Below, one piece after another: positions 61 through 10,783 of a stretch of 64,000 nucleotides of DNA. This DNA is from Aphrocallistes beatrix (lineage: Eukaryota > Porifera > Hexactinellida > Sceptrulophora > Aphrocallistidae), in assembly GCA_963281255.1 (NCBI GenBank), contig OY725494.1, forward strand, positions 3,609,934 through 3,673,933, read 5' to 3'. The position numbers were made by a program, and so were the translations under genes. The notes beneath the pieces were generated by a model. The model saw only the letters and a program-made list of their open reading frames with translations, did no database searches and was not told where the DNA came from. Each line of letters starts with the position of its first letter. Positions within the stretch are counted from its first letter, which is position 1.

Positions 61-3000
61 CTCTCGACTCGCACAACATCTCTACAACTCTGTCTCGTAT
101 CGAATCCTATGTCAGATTCTCAAGTGTGGGGTTAGACTTGAAGTCCGTGAGGTGTACTGCTACTAACTCACTGGGAACTGATTCCGTGGAGGCTGAGGTA
201 CGAGTAGAGAGGCTAGGGAGACCTTGTGCACCCGTCCAGCTGAGAGAGATCGGATCTGAGTCTTTGAGCTTGTTGGAGTGGAGAGTGAACACGGACTGTG
301 CCGAGAAGTTTCAATTCGCATCTAGTTACATATTTGAGGTGACTGCTTCTAGCGGTGAGAGGACTGAGGTGGAGTACATTGTTGGAGAGGAGGAGATTGG
401 AGATAAGATGTTTAGTTTCTATCTTACTGGACTAACACCTAACACTGGTTACCAGGTAATGCAATTTTTAAAAAATACCTATTTTAAAAGCATTAAATTC
501 TATTAATATATAAGTATCACATGTCACAAAGCTCTTTTAAAAAAACAATCGTAATTAGATTCGTGTTTCAGGAAAGAACATTTTCGGAACTTCCAAGTAC
601 AGTGGTCGTATCACAGTGGTGACAGCACCAGTAGGAAAGAAAGTGATGTTCTACTACGGAGCTGAGAATGGAGACAGTGAGATGGAGCACAATTATTGGG
701 CTCAGTCTCCACCTCTCCATCTTGCTACTACTATCCCAGTGGGGGCTGCTAGATTGTTTTCAGTGTTTGTGACACCTTTTGGTACCCTTACTCTTGACAG
801 GAGGAGCTATTCTTGGTACCCTCAAGCATTTCCAGGCAGATACTATACAAGTTGTGAGTTAGTGCTTGCAATTTAATTAAATAAACGAAATGGAATGTTT
901 CTAGGTGTATAATGTTTTATCGAATAATTGAAAATTATATACGTATATACCACATGCGTACGTATAACAAAGTTGCATGCAGAATTATATGATAAGATTT
1001 ACTAATATATACCACATTTTGCATGGAAGTAGGTATTTAGAAAATTACATGCAATAAAACGAATCGTGCATTTAAGTATGTTTAGAGAGATTAGTTAAAG
1101 TGACTTGTTTATCAGCTCTCTTCATCTTGGCTCCTTTCTGGTCGGACGTTGACTACTCCGAAGAAGGTCACATCTCGTACAGAGTGTACCAGTCAGGGTC
1201 TGACGTGGTTGAGAACAGAGTGGTAGCAGAAGCCACAGAACTGTCTCAGGCGCAGGCTGGAGCCCCTCTCAACTTCACAGCACAGGCAGTGATAGTAGCC
1301 ACCTGGTCAGAAGTAGTCCCATGGGGATACCGGCGTGTGCATGTAGGCACAAATACATTTCAGGCAGCGCTTGTGACAGACTTTGAGCAGACATATGCTC
1401 TGTTCGGTTACAACTGTGGAGAGATGTCTTGGTCCTCTAGTGCTACCTACCCCACTAAACCTGTGATAGGATTCAATGCAGGAGGAGTGTTCTATTCTAA
1501 CCATTTCCTTTCAAAAAATGATTTTTCTCATCGGATTGGTTGTCAGACAGAAAATTGTGAGTTTTACTGTCAAATCCCTCGAAACATAAAGCAATTTTAT
1601 TTAATTCCCTTTGCCCAATGAGATGTCCTCATGTCAATGAAATTTGTATGCCCGTATTTGTATATAACATTTCCTCCTCTAGCTGATAGTACGATAGTGG
1701 GATATAAGGTGTCTTTAGACCTACCCTCAGATGACACACCAGAATCCGCCTGTATAAAATGGTTTCTACAAGACCATCTGATTAACCCAGACATCCTTTC
1801 ATCGCCCGCTTCTCCCTGTCCCTGTAACCTACGACAAGCGATATTTGATTCTCAGTTCCGATTCGATTTCGTCTCCTTTCTAACCAACACGTTTTCAACC
1901 GATGTCCTCTGTTTTGTATCAAGATTCCCTAATTCTGGAGTTTATCAAAGGTTGGGATTAAGCAAATAATGAGAGGTGTATCCTAGCATATTAGAATGAA
2001 TTGAAGCTTTCTAATAGCATCACTGACGATTAGAATATTTGTATCAACTATATGTATTTCATTCTCACAATTTTGAATCGAGTTAATACAAGTAATCGAC
2101 ACCTCATCAATAAGGAAATTATAGAAATATTCTCTAGATGTTGCTATGGATACTCTATTTTCACCTTCTTTTTCTTCTTTTCCAATACTCCTCTACTTAC
2201 TTCTGGGAATGAGAGGGGGTCTCTCCTCTCCACCACTCCACGCTTCTACCCTGACTCCTTGTACCAGAGGTACAGAGAACAGGATGAAGAGGGGTACACC
2301 CAGTGCTGTCTCCTCTCAGACAGCTGTCATCTCTACTTCAGGAGGAGACCTAGTGATGATTGCGCTGGCTACGTGTTTATCCCGTTTACGTGGGCATTTG
2401 GAGACCCACATGTCATTACCATAGATGGACTCAAGTACACTTTCAACGGAGTTGGTATGTACTACGCATTACAAAAGCTTCCAAAATATCGTACTTGTAG
2501 AAACATACTTGTATTGATCCTACATTCCATCCTAGGAGAATACTGGTACCTATTTCCAGTTGGGGATTGTGACTATCAAGTGCAAACGCGAACTGAACTT
2601 TTCAGAGACACAAATGCGACTGCATTCACTGCGGTAGCGGTTACAATCAACAACTGTTCTAACGTGTTCGTATCTCTCCTCGGAGAAGATGGACTCTCTC
2701 TCTTCGTTGACAATATCAACCGGACAGAGGAGGCGAGATCTCTTGGAGAACTGATTGTAGGCGATTGTCTGGAAATAGAGTATATGAATGCTAGCGCCAC
2801 ACAGGTAGTTATTTCAAGGTTTTAAACAATTGTGTAGAGGTCAAAATTGCAGAAAAAGTTTTCGGACGGAAATTAAGTTAAAATTTGTAGTTTTCCACTA
2901 AGAGCCTAACTTTTCAATTATCACCTCTGCGCCATAATTTACACTTAATGAAAGAAATATTTATGCAAATTCGTGAATTCACTGAACTTACTGTGCTGTT

Positions 3001-3327
3001 TCACAATGGGGATTGTAATATTATTTATATTTACGCATAGAAAACTCAAGTCAAAGCAGGGTATAAAAACGGCGCTTCTCTGAATGTACAATCGAACGGA
3101 GACTTGATCACCATGAACCTCACTGTCCCAGAAGCCTGCAAATTAAGCACTCAAGGGTTGTTAGGTCAGTGGGATGATAACACAAACAATGACTTTCTGA
3201 TGAGAAATGGCACTCTTCTGTCTCCTAACGTGACTGACAGGATAAAGGAGGAATTTGCAGAATCTTGGAGGATAACTCTCGAAGAGAGTCTAATGAATTA
3301 TATGACAAGGAATTATAACCAGTACAA
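61..3327 (+). other. Ectodomain part 1: FN3, NIDO, AMOP and VWD domains
   Basis: Exon 61-455 holds the end of an Ig-like domain (a YxCxAxN-like C-terminal strand) and the start of an FN3 domain, completed in exon 559-853 by a strand reading [17 protein letters not shown] across the junction. Exons 559-1556 encode a nidogen-like NIDO domain (LAPFWSDVD near 1130, an aromatic/Gly FNAGG motif near 1474). Exons 1683-2454 hold the AMOP region with CC pairs at about 2139 and 2303, then [17 protein letters not shown], which opens a von Willebrand type D domain. That domain continues through 2536-2804 and 3041-3327 ([14 protein letters not shown]). AMOP followed directly by VWD is characteristic of MUC4/SUSD2-type proteins. 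Several N-glycosylation motifs are present. Confidence 0.8.
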
Positions 3328-6300
3328 GTGAGTGTTCTTGATAATATAAAATTTAATGAAACCCAGATGTCCGTCTACACAATGACAAGTTTGTATTGTC
3401 TGAATTAGGTATTGATATCAATATCTTTTACAGTTTAGTGACCCAGGTTGGGGCAGGATAGCCCGTCCCAAACTGGGATTAGTAACAACTAGACGAAACA
3501 CCTTGAACTTATTCTATGATATTGTGGTCGTGTTAACTACGTACATTTTATTCCTTAGTCCGAATCACACAGCTACTATTTTCTTGGACGAAATAATTGG
3601 CAACGTTTCCATGGAAATAAAAGAGTTGTGTATGGACGAAGTGAGCTGTCTCTTCGACGCATTTGTAACCAACGACACATCCATAGCTACAGCATCTCTT
3701 TCCATAACAACGGAGTCTCAGGCCTCTGTCCAGATAGCCAGCAACATGCCTCCTCTCATCCTAGCTCCTCCCTTGCTCAATCTGACTCTGAACAACCTGG
3801 TCACTTACCAGTTCAATGTGACAGATGAAGACGACTTCTCTGTCTCTCACTTGCTCTTCCCTCTGCTCTCTTTCCAACAAGTCGCACTCTCCAACTCATC
3901 ACTCACACAATTCAGACTCCAAATGAGTCTGATGGACATTTCTGAGTCATTAAATGTGACAATAATCGCGAATGACTCTCTCGGCGTCAGTATTAGGAGT
4001 GTGACAGTGGTTGTCTGTCACTGTGAGAATGGAGGCTACTGCACCCCTGACGTACCAGCTGTAGGAGTGAGTGGCTTCAGTAGATCTTCTTGTCAGTGTC
4101 CTCTCTCGTATGAAGGTCTCTATTGCTCCTCTCCTGTCACTGACATGTGTCTGCAGTCTGTTTGTCTCACTGAAGCCTGTCCAGCTGGAACGATTGAGAA
4201 CACAAACACAGCCAAGTGTGAAGGTACTCTTAGTATAAACTAAACTAAACTAGGTCAAGTACTTGAATTTTCAATCACCCGGCCATTCATTATTAGCAAG
4301 TGCTGTACTCAAATTAATCGGTGATATGTGATATGCGTTCTTTAGACATTGACGAGTGCACCACTAATTGTAAGCAGCTGCATCAGGTGTGCAACAACAC
4401 CTACGGGAGCTACCTGTGCTCCTGTGAGGCCGGATACCAGATGGAGGATGGAGAGTGCGTAGACTCTGATGAGTGTTCTCATCCCATCTCTCCTTGCCAG
4501 CACCTGTGTACCAACACTCAGGGTAGGAATTGAATCCACACGATGAGTTGTTGACACACTTGTTTACTGTTGACTGTTAGGGTCCTTCACGTGTGAATGC
4601 AATCAGAACTATCAGCTACAACCAGACCAGTCCTCGTGCAGGGGAATAGATAGTGGTTCCTGTCCTAACGGAATGGAGCCTCCTTACCAATGTGAAAATA
4701 ACACGTGCACACTTCAAGGGACGGAATTAGTGTGTCAGTATTGTCCTAGAGGCACAGAGCTGAGCAGTAACGGGAGAAGATGCGAGGATGTAGATGAGTG
4801 TGTGTTACAATCTGATATCTGTCCTCCTGATAGCTCTCTCTGTAGGAATGTGTATGGGTCTTTCAACTGTCTCTGTTTCAAAGGATACGATGATATTCAG
4901 GTTGGAACATCAAATTATTCTCATATGAAACATATATGTATACTACACACTAATTACTGAAATGCCATATAAACCATGTGTCATCCAAAATCGGTTGAAA
5001 CAATTATAAATTTTCATTGTACAATGATCACTTTATTTCCTGAGCAGGACACGTGTGTGGATGTGGATGAGTGCTTCAGTATTACCCCCGTGTGTGGTGC
5101 TGGTGAGTCTTGCTTTAACACACCAGGAAGTTATGTGTGTGCTTCCTTCTGCTATCTCCCAAACAACTTCCTCACTCCCGATGGACAATGCAGAGGTAAC
5201 CTGCATTTCTTAGAGAGAGTGTTTAATTTTTAATCTCTATCTCTTCTTCGAAGTTGTGGAGAGTGACGTGTCAAGAGTTCCAGAGAACACAGAACGACTT
5301 ATCATTACATTCAGTCTGAGTTTCTCTGAATTATCAGAATCGCTGACAGTTCGATCTCTCTCTCTGTCCACCCTCTACTCAGCTCTCAACTCCACTCTCC
5401 GAACGCCGAGAGAAGACATCCTGTTCATAGAGCTGCAGACTTCTGAGGGTGCATTCCAGCTACTCGCGATATCTGACAGTTTCCAAGTAGACCCATCTCT
5501 TGTGACTGGACTCTTAAGGACGGATTTTGCACCTGAATGGGCTCCATATTATTCCTATGTCACCAGCACTTCTGTAGATAGTGAGTGATAGCGGTACTTC
5601 ATTTATCCCTTCTCCATATCGTGTTTTCACTTCACTTCTCTTTCCAGTTAGTTCAGTTCAACCAGACTTTGGAATTACCACAACAACCTTAATCATTGTT
5701 TCCATATGTGCTGCGGTATTCTTGTTAATGTTTCTATTCACAATCTCTTGTTTCTGGACTTTATCCGTCCCCAAACTGAAGCGCAAGAAAAAAGATGAAA
5801 ATGGATCTCTTTATGAAGGACTCCTATCAGAATTGTGAGTAAAATGCAAAGATATTATCGTGCATATTTACCGAAATCATCCCTCCATATTTACTCAGTT
5901 TGTTTTCAGTCATGTAAGTGAAGGCTTACAGCATCATAGCACTAGTTATATGAACATACGTAGCTAGTAATATCAACATTGCATGTACTCACCACGCCCT
6001 AAAATAGACTCAAATACCAGTGCTAAGTCCTCACAGAAATCCCATTTGTAGCTACACTTACAATACGTATTTGCTTCAACCTTGGTTTCACCCAATGAAG
6101 ACTTCACTTGGTTAGAACATCGTTAGTTGTGTAAATACTCCTCCTAAAGACCTAATTGTAATCATTTCTAATTATTGTCCGTAAATTTTAGAAACAAGTT
6201 AAAAGATAAAAGAGCTAAGCCTCGCCCAAGCGATTCAATGGACTACTCACCGAATTGGCCAAAGGGAACTGTTGAATCTAATCATCTTATTCCATCTACT

Positions 6301-8201
6301 CTCTCCTATCTCCTTGCTGAAAGCCCTCCCTTCGCAATATATGGAGAATTCAACAGCATTCCAATGCATCTAGCTACAGGTAGATAGGACAATAGCGATG
6401 TTTAGTGCAGCGAGATGTCATTATGGAATTTACAGTGTAATATGTCCATCGGAAGCGGCGGTATTTGTGAAGTCTAAAATCTTTTTTGCTACTTTGGTTG
6501 TAGAGCCTTCAAAGTGTAGTCACTGTGTACCTGTTTTATAAATTTACAATTTCGCACTTCTAAAATTGTAATTCGAATATTTCATGTGATTTGAACTCGT
6601 ATGCGTGATATATGAATGCATTTTAATTTAAGCCATCCATTTATCCACTCCTAGTTGAGGATATTCCTCCTGGCTGTGAACAGAAGAATCGTTTCAACAA
6701 TATCCTACCCCCTCCTCACTCCCGGGTACCTCTCTTCCTCAAGTACGGACTCCCCAACTCGGACTATATCAACGCTAACTTCGTTCGCGGTTACGATATG
6801 AAGCCGAGAGTGTACATTGCGACTCAGGCTCCTCTCTTCGAAACAGAGCAGGATTTCTGGAGGATGGTTTGGTTAGGAATACTAATAAGTAGACCCCATT
6901 TAACATACTACAAGCTCGCTTCGCGCACTTGGATTGCGCGACTAGCGAGCACTTCGTATTCGCAAAGTCCCTACGGGTGCCAAATATTGATTACTTTCAC
7001 AAATCCATTTCAAATTTGTTTACTTTATGAATGTATGGTATATTTTTTAAAATAACAATATAATATCGTAAATAGGATATTTTGAGATTTGTTTACTTTA
7101 TGTATCTATTGTGAGCAAAAGTAAACAAATAATTTATCATACAAATCTGAAAATACGATAATCGAAATCTACACCCCTGAAAACCCCATGTCAACCGTTG
7201 GAAGCTAGTGTCTAGCATATTTTTGAGATTTGTTTACTTTATGTATCTATTGTGAACAAAAGTAAACAAATAATTTATCACATAGCTTCGAAAATATGAT
7301 ATTCGAAATCTACACCCCTAAAAACCCCATGTCAATAAATTTATCGAGAATATATAATATTATATCAGGAACAGAATAATGTGATACTTTTTCATTAATT
7401 ATATTTACAGTTCTGAACTCCTGTACTAGTCGACCATTTCACTGTATCTTATACATACATACTTGTTCAACAAATGACATTAGCATTATTTAGATTGCTT
7501 CTACAGGGAACAGAATACACAAGTCATCATCATGCTAACGGAAATGGTAGAGAGAGGGAGGGAAAAGTGTATTCCTTACTGGCCTGATAAAGATATTTTA
7601 ACTTCAATTCGATCAGGAGGGATTGAAATTATTTCCAAGCAGAAAATCGTAAAAGAAGAATACCAGATTGACGAGTTTATATTGAAACACGTCAATGTAA
7701 GTATTAATAGTGTTGCTAAGTTGTCCATCCTATACAATAAGCGTTTCCTACAATTGTATATATTAGCAGATTCATGTGTTCAATTACAAAGTGCGGAAAT
7801 ACTCTACTTTGTTACTGTATTCATAGTTCAATGAAGTGCATGAGGTGTCTCACTACTGGTACAGGAAGTGGCCAGAGTACGGAGTGCCCTGTGATCCCAA
7901 CCCACTCGTGAGCATGCTGATAGAGAGCCGCGCGAAACCTCGCAACAGCAGCCATCCTGTGGTGGTGCACTGTGCCTCTGGCACCGGTAGGACGGGAGTG
8001 GTGCTGGGGGTGGACATAGGAATGCAAGAGCTGGATGAGACTCAGTCAGTGGACATTCTACGGAATGTGTGTCTGATGAGACAAGACAGAGGTGGTTTGG
8101 TCCAGACCCAGGACCAGTACCACTTCCTCCACAAGTGTGTCTGTGCATATGCGAGATACATAGACAGCCACCCGGCAGCGAGAGGGGCGGTACATAAATG
8201 A
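61..8201 (+). CDS. Chimeric receptor-type protein tyrosine phosphatase with a mucin-4-like ectodomain (5' partial)
   Basis: Predicted type I membrane receptor that would dephosphorylate phosphotyrosine in response to adhesion or matrix signals (role inferred). Exons by splice sites and phase: 61-455, 559-853, 1116-1556, 1683-1950, 2138-2454, 2536-2804, 3041-3327, 3559-4223, 4346-4522, 4581-4900, 5048-5195, 5254-5580, 5648-5834, 6192-6379, 6655-6871, 7507-7696, 7827-8201. All junctions are GT-AG, and every exon end phase matches the next start, giving about 1,687 codons without a stop. Domain order: (Ig end)-FN3-NIDO-AMOP-VWD-EGF-calcium-binding EGFs-membrane segment-PTP. The first exon boundary is the least certain, and upstream exons lie outside the window. 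Known families: NIDO-AMOP-VWD-EGF is the mucin-4 architecture, while classical receptor PTPs carry Ig/FN3 ectodomains. A single gene is supported by phase continuity, not by transcript data. Confidence 0.82.
3559..5834 (+). other. Ectodomain part 2: EGF and calcium-binding EGF repeats, juxtamembrane domain, transmembrane segment
   Basis: Exon 3559-4223 encodes an N-glycosylated beta-rich stretch as found after VWD in MUC4-like proteins, then a cysteine-rich EGF module (CHCENGGYC near 4018). Exons 4346-4522, 4581-4900 and 5048-5195 carry calcium-binding EGF modules starting DIDEC, DSDEC, DVDEC and DVDEC, a signature of extracellular matrix and receptor proteins. Exon 5254-5580 is a roughly 108-residue cysteine-free domain, possibly SEA-like, though I cannot assign it. 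Exon 5648-5834 holds one hydrophobic helix ([17 protein letters not shown]) followed by a basic stop-transfer stretch (KLKRKKK). This fixes the topology: everything upstream is outside the cell and everything downstream is cytoplasmic. Confidence 0.82.
6192..8201 (+). other. Cytoplasmic juxtamembrane region and single tyrosine phosphatase domain (C-terminal)
   Basis: Exons 6655-6871, 7507-7696 and 7827-8201 form one complete classical PTP domain. Visible motifs are KNRF (phosphotyrosine-loop region), [29 protein letters not shown] across the 6871/7507 junction, [21 protein letters not shown] (WPD loop), the P-loop [10 protein letters not shown] at 7968-7997 with the nucleophilic Cys at 7971-7973 and Arg in CX5R, and QTQDQY (Q loop). 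The catalytic Cys and Arg are intact, so activity is possible. Two departures stand out. The WPD-loop general acid is Glu (GAG, 7875-7877). The phosphotyrosine-stacking Tyr of KNRY is Phe (6693-6695). Only one PTP domain is present before the stop at 8199-8201. Confidence 0.9.
6885..7340. repeat. Dispersed repeat with 141-bp internal tandem units, in an intron of the receptor PTP gene
   Basis: The intron holds two tandem units starting at 7081 and 7222 (period 141 bp). Each begins TTTGAGATTTGTTTACTTTA and ends in a CTACACCCCTxAAAACCCCATGTCAA-type block, with a third partial start near 7008. A block at about 6905-6960 rich in CG (CGCTTCGCGCACTTG) sits at one end. The same units and the same CG-rich end recur in reverse orientation at about 62230-62505, so this is a mobile repeat family, not a local duplication alone. 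Confidence 0.7.
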
Positions 8202-9088: not shown

Positions 9089-10483
9089 TTAAGATGATCT
9101 ATACACGTCTCCATACTTGACTCTCATCAGTGTCTGCCAAGGACCTGACCTTCTCTTCATATTCTGAGTGAAATTAACTTCCTGACCTTTGGAGATGCCG
9201 TAGGATTCGAGCACTTGACTAAAATTGAACTTAAGAATGCTAGAAGAAACACTGCTCACATCCATATCGAACAGATGTGGATTCTGGCTGTATAATTTTT
9301 CTCGTTTGTTTCTGATCCTCATTTGATAATCCTTCTGAGCTTCACTGATCTTTTTTCGTATAAGAGGAACGTCTTCGAAGGTTAGAATGCTAGGTGATTT
9401 GCGTTCTATGTCGGACAGTTTAACGCAAGCTAACCTTGCCAGAGGCTTGACGTCCAATTTTATAGGGAGATCATTTCTTGTCCCCGTCGTAAAATTCTGA
9501 GTTTGTTGGATACGCTTGTTTACTCGTTTTTCTTTCTCTTCTTCGGTTTTCTGTTCTTCAACATTGTCGTTATGGAATATAATCTTAAGTCTGATTTTCC
9601 CTTTCATTCTTTTCCGCATTGCTAGCCTGCTCTTCTCCTCTGGGAGACGGCATATAGGCTCAGAGTAAGGGCTGTCACTGTCTCCGGTTTTATACTTGAA
9701 GCGAAGGTTTGCAAGATGAATGGCAAGCTGTTTTTCATTGAGTCCGATCAGCCTCGCTCCAGCTGCGTAGTGCGCCACTACGTGAGGTGACTTCCTGTCC
9801 TTGTTGTGATAGTATCGCTCTATCTCTGTGAGGGAGGAGAGGGCGCTCTTACGCATAAACTTTGTGAGTGCCGAGAATAGTAGCGTCTGGCTGTTATTGC
9901 GGCTTTCATCGCGGCTAGCAAGGAACTTTTCAGTTGAGGTCATTAGATGTAGAAATTCTTCAAAGTCAATTTCTCCATTACCATCTTCATCTATCACGAC
10001 TAGAATATCCCTGATTTCCTCTTGAGTCAGTTTGATGTCCACTGAGTGAAACGCTTTTTCAAGCTCATCCGAATCAATGCTCCCTCCTCCGTTCATATCA
10101 AAGAGGTTAAAAACTTCACTGAACGCCTCCACCTGTTTCTTTGTGAGCCCGTACACATCCTCTTGTCTCCCTTTCAGGCTATCCATCCGGGGCCTAAGCT
10201 TTGCTGGGTTGGCAGATAGATCATCCATATCAGTCTGACACTCTGGAGCAATCGCGGATCTCCGGTTCAGTTCGGATACCTTGCACTTGTTACTCTGATT
10301 AGCTCCGTGTCCTTTAAGTACCTTGAATACATTATTATTTTCATTCCTTTCGTCTTTGCATTCTAGAGCTTTGGAAAAATCGAGAGCTATCTTCTCCTCA
10401 CTACGAGTTAGGTTTGATATTTTCAAATTGGATATCTTTCCATCATCTAATATCTTAACATAGGCTACATTTTCATTTAACAT
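9089..10483 (-). CDS. EF-hand calcium-binding protein with a conserved-looking C-terminal region (464 aa, single exon)
   Basis: One uninterrupted ORF from an ATG at 10483 to the stop at 9089. Residues about 115-185 form a calmodulin/centrin-type EF-hand pair. Loop 1 (DMNGGGSIDSDE, about 129-140) has Gly at position 5 and may bind calcium weakly. Loop 2 (DEDGNGEIDFEE, about 165-176) is canonical. Beyond residue 200 is a segment with RKSALSSLTEIERYYHNKDR and HVVAHYAAGARLIGL, then a basic, Lys/Arg-rich tail, which I cannot assign to a named domain. The N-terminal 100 residues are polar and probably disordered. Probable role: a calcium sensor or cytoskeleton/cilium-associated protein, by analogy to centrin-type EF-hands only. 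The complete lack of introns contrasts with the neighbouring 17-exon gene. Confidence 0.75.
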   Translation of the reverse strand: MLNENVAYVKILDDGKISNLKISNLTRSEEKIALDFSKALECKDERNENNNVFKVLKGHGANQSNKCKVSELNRRSAIAPECQTDMDDLSANPAKLRPRMDSLKGRQEDVYGLTKKQVEAFSEVFNLFDMNGGGSIDSDELEKAFHSVDIKLTQEEIRDILVVIDEDGNGEIDFEEFLHLMTSTEKFLASRDESRNNSQTLLFSALTKFMRKSALSSLTEIERYYHNKDRKSPHVVAHYAAGARLIGLNEKQLAIHLANLRFKYKTGDSDSPYSEPICRLPEEKSRLAMRKRMKGKIRLKIIFHNDNVEEQKTEEEKEKRVNKRIQQTQNFTTGTRNDLPIKLDVKPLARLACVKLSDIERKSPSILTFEDVPLIRKKISEAQKDYQMRIRNKREKLYSQNPHLFDMDVSSVSSSILKFNFSQVLESYGISKGQEVNFTQNMKRRSGPWQTLMRVKYGDVYRSS

Positions 10484-10783
10484 TGTTTTGATACAAAAAT
10501 AAATCTATAATTAATCACAGAAATCAAGCAGTTATATTCGTTTTACTTTATGCATAATTACCTAAAAAAAAGATCAAATTCTATTCGTTGAATATCAGTG
10601 TCGTTATTATTATTAGTCAAGCAGGATATATGGCATTAATTTAAGTACAAGATCTCGTATGTTTTATTCTGGCCTAGTACTGACTGAGATATTTTATACA
10701 CAGATATACGATACTTATTCATACAGAATACAATCATACATTAATCAAAAATGAAGCAAGAGGAAAATCAGAATTATTTCAGT

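Follow-up and report, generated by a model that had tools for sequence, protein, structure and literature searches.

Whether a mucin-type ectodomain and a cytoplasmic protein tyrosine phosphatase (PTP) can be encoded as one receptor is the question raised by a gene at the start of a 64,000-nucleotide stretch of the Aphrocallistes beatrix genome (contig OY725494.1, C8:3609934-3673933; hereafter the window). An earlier note on this DNA had read 17 exons at positions 61-8201 as such a fusion. This gene, designated B, was analyzed together with its relatives in the surveyed genome of 100.5 Mb and 28 contigs. Gene structure, domain matches, paralogs and selection on the linking exons together made it quite likely that B and at least two other genes encode a predicted type I receptor, composed of Ig and FN3 domains, a MUC4-like ectodomain, a transmembrane (TM) helix and a PTP domain on the cytoplasmic side. 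On their own, MUC4-type proteins and receptor PTPs are both known, and SUSD2 and PTPRZ1 appeared as separate gene groups in the part of PMC11788884 that was available. The combination in one protein is apparently new: as the earlier note had supposed, no description of it was found among the matches listed from the open-licence literature, while automatic entries may exist in general protein databases, which were outside the search.

Gene structure and domain organization of B

The exon chain was confirmed by scripted joining, with phases and splice flanks inspected. One frame ran through 17 exons at 61-8201, all introns were GT-AG, and the frame ended with a stop codon at 8199-8201. Both junctions quoted previously, FWRMVW/EQNTQV and CR/VVESD, were as described. 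One more exon, which lies before the start of the window, was joined in phase to exon 2, which gave a full model of 18 exons and 1886 amino acids with one stop. Exon 2 was scripted as 33-455, and its probable acceptor is at 60/61. Automatic splice choice, with or without a length bonus, altered the lengths of some exons; the manual junctions, which are common to paralog A, were kept. The exons are as follows (window positions; negative values lie before its first letter).

-680 to -86 (C8:3609253-3609847), + strand: exon 1, ATG, signal-peptide-like stretch (judged from hydropathy only), Ig domains
61-455, + strand: exon 2, end of the last Ig domain and start of FN3
559-853, 1116-1556 and 1683-1950, + strand: exons 3-5, script chain
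2138-2454, 2536-2804, 3041-3327 and 3559-4223, + strand: exons 6-9, script chain
4346-4522, 4581-4900, 5048-5195 and 5254-5580, + strand: exons 10-13, script chain
5648-5834 and 6192-6379, + strand: exons 14-15, script chain
6655-6871, 7507-7696 and 7827-8201, + strand: exons 16-18, script chain

When the joined protein was searched against Pfam, Y_phosphatase, NIDO, EGF_CA, VWD and C8-3_MUC4 were matched, and the Y_phosphatase match covered nearly the whole profile, in agreement with the claim of a complete PTP domain. The predicted order in B is Ig, FN3, NIDO, AMOP, VWD with a GDPH motif, C8-3_MUC4, EGF_CA, one TM helix and one PTP domain.

234-618, + strand: FN3 domain, exons 2-3, 25.7 bits for Pfam fn3 when the piece was searched alone (cut-off 25)
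760-1702, + strand: NIDO domain, exons 3-5, Pfam E 1.3e-23
1745-2336, + strand: AMOP domain, exons 5-6, Pfam 24.0 bits on the piece (cut-off 25)
2394-3214, + strand: VWD domain, exons 6-8, Pfam E 3e-9
2400-2411, + strand: GDPH motif in VWD, putative MUC4-type self-cleavage site, by motif search
3614-3733, + strand: C8-3_MUC4 domain, Pfam E 4.7e-6, 26.3 bits (cut-off 25)
4346-5195, + strand: EGF_CA repeats, exons 10-12, Pfam E 2.2e-23 in 4 stretches
5254-5580, + strand: membrane-proximal domain, exon 13, tentatively SEA-like from its predicted beta-alpha-beta-beta-alpha-beta order
5689-5745, + strand: TM helix of 19 residues, the top hydropathy peak of the protein, followed by basic KLKRKKK
6192-6379, + strand: juxtamembrane segment, exon 15, from the gene model
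6681-8141, + strand: cytoplasmic PTP domain, exons 16-18, Pfam Y_phosphatase E 5.3e-70, profile positions 3-232 of 234
7869-7877, + strand: WPE where WPD is expected
7968-7997, + strand: PTP loop of 10 residues, Cys and Arg of C-x5-R retained

A GDPH site in VWD is also carried by MUC4, according to the available part of PMC8660890. The membrane-proximal domain of exon 13 gave no Foldseek match at E 0.001 or better.

Recurrence of the plan in three genes

In a profile search of the genome, five NIDO matches were found among those listed, and three of the five (genes A, B and C) were followed by PTP exons. The loci other than B are as follows.

C8:3591197-3608351: gene A, tandem neighbor of B, 18 exons, 3964 amino acids, in-phase chain with one stop
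C8:3900442-3910835: gene C, about 280 kb beyond B, 19 exons, 2003 amino acids, in-phase chain with one stop
C12:1112990: NIDO-AMOP-VWD-EGF (partly by eye) and a hydrophobic tail, ending without a PTP domain
C12:342511: NIDO and VWD-like exons, no nearby PTP among the matches listed (the DNA beyond the locus was not looked at)

The domains of gene A were assigned by comparison with B, to which 14 of the 17 exons compared are 92-100% identical in nucleotides, and its repeat and Ig exon was read from translation. Exon 1 of A is a 2308-amino-acid open reading frame with a signal-peptide-like start, a repeat array and then Ig domains. The array consists of a 138-bp unit in 40.2 copies with 95% matches, all within one open frame (L010:1535-7077), and reads as 40 units of 46 amino acids whose consensus is 46% Ser/Thr/Pro. 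These repeats give gene A the appearance of a transmembrane mucin that ends in a phosphatase, and the array would probably be O-glycosylated. It amounts to about 1,850 Ser/Thr/Pro-rich residues and is absent from B, whose ectodomain A largely shares; in B, Ser/Thr/Pro reached 25% over 40 N-terminal residues, without a tandem-repeat array. The mucin-4-like ectodomain claimed for the window gene stood as far as the MUC4-type block was concerned, which recurs in three genes, with GDPH in A and B. The long mucin repeat sits in the neighbor A.

The DNA of A (C8:3598240-3608351) and B (61-8201) was also compared exon by exon. High identity was seen in the 14 exons mentioned above, and 12 of the 16 introns compared were no more alike than unrelated introns. 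The identity halted at many exon edges; for exon 2, 30 of 30 positions matched inside and 9 of 30 outside, on both flanks. Exons 14, 15 and 17 escaped the high identity. The pattern looks like repeated gene conversion confined to exons.

Gene C was far more diverged, with 18-68% identity to B per exon. Its Ig, fn3, NIDO, VWA and PTP domains were over the Pfam cut-offs, with VWA at the place taken by the EGF repeats in A and B, and it contains a short Ser/Thr/Pro-rich stretch (60% over 78 residues). In all three proteins the top hydropathy peak precedes the PTP domain. Eight successive introns from Ig to VWD had identical phases in B and C (1,0,1,1,2,1,0,2), and so did three introns at or in the PTP domain (1,2,0). 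Gene C differs from B in the phase of its TM-exon intron, 1 against 2, and in one additional intron in the PTP loop. Chaining demanded compatible phases and did not impose the particular values common to B and C.

Nonsynonymous (dN) and synonymous (dS) divergence between A and B was calculated for the linking exons by the Nei-Gojobori method in our own script, in which dS above 1 is rough. The values (dS/dN) were 1.47/0.38 for the TM exon, 1.02/0.28 for the juxtamembrane exon and 0.80/0.12 for exon 17, and the introns beside these exons aligned no better than unrelated introns. Since dN was well below the high dS, these three exons appear to have been long kept as protein-coding in both genes. 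The in-frame joining of a MUC4-type ectodomain to a cytoplasmic PTP domain, as first read in the window, was therefore supported by its recurrence in three genes, by the shared phases and by purifying selection on the linking exons.

Catalytic state of the PTP domains

The earlier note had expected such a receptor to couple adhesion to phosphotyrosine removal. The PTP domain with its C-x5-R is present; catalysis by the window gene is not assured, given WPE and an altered PTP loop. Both changes occur in A and B, and gene C keeps WPD and has the loop HCSSGAGRTG. The loop Cys and Arg are present in all three proteins. Ser stands next to the loop Gly (an Ala-to-Ser change) in all three as well, and because C is included, the case for a fully active C is weakened. 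From these residues, little or no catalysis is expected of A and B, and C is the likelier enzyme. The window gene B may be a weak or pseudo-phosphatase, and since WPE stands in place of the general-acid WPD, it was not filed as an active PTP.

The chances that the PTP domains of A and B are pseudophosphatases, which would bind phosphotyrosine proteins or compete with active enzymes, were judged about even; this is compatible with a single receptor chain. In the parts of PMC2638020 and PMC7320164 that were available, the change to WPE makes PTP1B less active by about three orders of magnitude and PTPRK by about 115-fold, Glu for Asp is also tied to inactive D2 domains, and two proteins that have WPE are inactive: PTPRU, and HDPTP, which combines it with an Ala/Ser loop change. 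The same sources report PTPRQ with WPE as a phosphoinositide phosphatase, which speaks on the other side, as does PTPD1 with WPE, whose activity on 6,8-difluoro-4-methylumbelliferyl phosphate was about that of CD45, but which was inactive on peptides (PMC2638020, in part). Also against a pseudophosphatase, DYINA and QTxDQY are retained in A and B alongside the loop Cys and Arg, and exon 17 has a dN/dS of 0.15, which indicates constraint, though not necessarily on catalysis. KNRF is no special sign, because it was seen in two of the eight other PTP loci inspected.

One gene or two

The alternative that bears on the gene itself is a pair of adjacent genes, in which the TM exon would be the last of a MUC4-like membrane protein and the PTP exons downstream would form a gene of their own. 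An in-frame stop is met at once when B is read beyond the donor of the TM exon, so that a short-tailed isoform is possible and intron retention would yield a short-tailed mucin; the relative at C12:1112990 ends in a hydrophobic tail and has no PTP domain. All three genes carry a Met late in the juxtamembrane exon (as IPM in A and B and as LPM in C), where a soluble PTP could, by sequence, have an internal start. The joined reading itself was built on gene models from genome sequence, in one species. On the other side, the domain order is identical in three genes with in-phase junctions, and the juxtamembrane exon is conserved past the shared Met (60% identity between A and B, 41% between C and B). 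An earlier Met in this exon of B, within SDSMDY, is missing from A. The phases shared by B and C and the purifying selection on the TM and juxtamembrane exons between A and B argue against two separate genes, and this alternative was considered unlikely. That the fusion was produced by collapsed or misjoined copies is very improbable: tandem genes that are near-identical in many exons are an error-prone setting for assemblies, but the unrelated sequence of 12 of the 16 A-B introns compared means that A and B are not echoes of each other, and gene C, distant and diverged, has the same plan.

Besides the stop, the shared Met and the evidence base of one species, several results weigh against the single-receptor reading. 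Within the order FN3-NIDO-AMOP-VWD-EGF-TM-PTP claimed at first, NIDO, VWD, EGF and PTP were over their cut-offs and TM was upheld by hydropathy, while AMOP fell just below and fn3 was borderline. In the whole B protein, fn3 was just short of its cut-off (E 4.7e-5, 23.9 bits against 25) and AMOP was not listed by Pfam at E 0.001; the AMOP piece is 1 bit under the cut-off, yet lies at the expected place between NIDO and VWD. In gene C, AMOP (22.6 bits) and C8-3_MUC4 (22.9 bits) were both under the cut-off of 25, and the GDPH found in A and B was absent by motif search. The model of C needed two acceptors picked over better-scoring ones, and one intron was obtained only with a loosened search. 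In gene A, hydropathy peaks a second time at residue 2038 (1.95). Between A and B, dN/dS was not low in three little-diverged exons, with about 0.82 (exon 3), 0.65 (exon 4) and 0.85 (exon 9). The doubtful catalysis of A and B belongs here as well. The shared Met and the Ala-to-Ser change in C entered into the weights given in this text to the single receptor, to the two-gene alternative and to the wider class proposed below.

Relation to known proteins and proposed mechanism

Gene B is most likely to be filed as a receptor PTP with a MUC4 ectodomain plan, with signal peptide, ectodomain, TM helix and PTP domain predicted in one open reading frame. It was not filed as a MUC4 member because the Ser/Thr/Pro repeat array is missing in B. 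B resembles MUC4 and SUSD2/mesh-type proteins in NIDO, AMOP (sub-threshold), VWD with GDPH, C8-3_MUC4, EGF and TM, and paralog A also shares with MUC4 a Ser/Thr/Pro tandem-repeat array ahead of the MUC4-type domains. The tail of MUC4 is short. Here, in contrast, NIDO is preceded by Ig and FN3 domains, and a PTP domain forms the tail.

Signal peptide, Ig, FN3, TM and a cytoplasmic PTP domain are features shared with the type IIa receptor PTPs (LAR/PTPRF, PTPRS), and the closest solved-structure match of B and C was PTPRS, with LAR and PTPRA close behind. These receptors differ in having D1 plus D2, whereas a single PTP domain and a MUC4-type block in the ectodomain are found here. CD45 (PTPRC) has a mucin-like stretch ahead of its folded domains, a TM helix and two PTP domains; to our knowledge it lacks NIDO, AMOP, VWD and EGF. 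The order of mucin-like stretch, TM and PTP is alike, with the long repeat in paralog A only, whereas CD45 differs in its second PTP domain and the MUC4-type domains are found here only. Glu in the WPD loop, as in A and B, also occurs in PTPRU, PTPRQ, PTPD1, HDPTP and several receptor PTP D2 domains. This group differs in having other ectodomains or consisting of non-receptor proteins, and paralog C here retains WPD. Receptor PTPs with WPE thus exist, namely PTPRU and PTPRQ (PMC7320164, in part).

How such receptors would work, from cleavage and ligand binding to signalling, we infer as follows. The ectodomain of A and B would cut itself at GDPH in VWD, with the two parts staying attached, as proposed for MUC4. 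The Ig/FN3/NIDO/AMOP part may bind matrix, mucus or adjacent cells. Where the outer part stands, and whether it is clustered or released, would be relayed to the PTP domain by the membrane-proximal domain and the helix. The array of gene A could form a tall rod that holds the PTP domain out of close contacts, with B as the short version; for CD45, bulk-based exclusion of the phosphatase from close contacts has been proposed. C may dephosphorylate targets, and A and B, with WPE, would more likely be weak enzymes or binders of phosphotyrosine proteins. A wider proposal, which we regard as rather doubtful, is a class of mucin receptor phosphatases, in which a GDPH-cleaved mucin would be covalently its own signalling enzyme, the height of the array in A would set the approach of the PTP domain to a contact, and A and B would be phosphotyrosine-binding decoys beside an active C.

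Because their tails are short, membrane mucins are generally considered to signal via partners. A mucin-type ectodomain and a PTP domain in one protein, as the gene structure indicates, would give adhesion or the state of the glycocalyx a direct route into phosphotyrosine signalling. With much of their ectodomain in common and the array of about 1,850 residues in A only, A and B would be a natural pair for studying size-based exclusion of phosphatases from contacts.

Other observations in the window and the genome

An Rfam scan of the window gave no match. Just 3' of gene B, on the opposite strand (9089-10504, - strand), an intronless frame of 471 amino acids contains EF-hand-like stretches by eye. 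Elsewhere in the genome, dense clusters of PTP domains in long uninterrupted frames, several with two PTP domains, were seen at C15:65915-276551 and C2:51758-86825, and five AMOP matches lie inside one open frame of 7538 residues at C15:525531-538475. SRCR domains gave at least 151 matches from the 150 scored of 308 first-look candidates, with a large group at C4:4931291-5822799 among the matches listed. Such an SRCR number, together with the compact genome and the many PTP domains, would suit a sponge. A simple repeat at L023:9020-9438 reads as long ITHV or CNYT runs in several frames.

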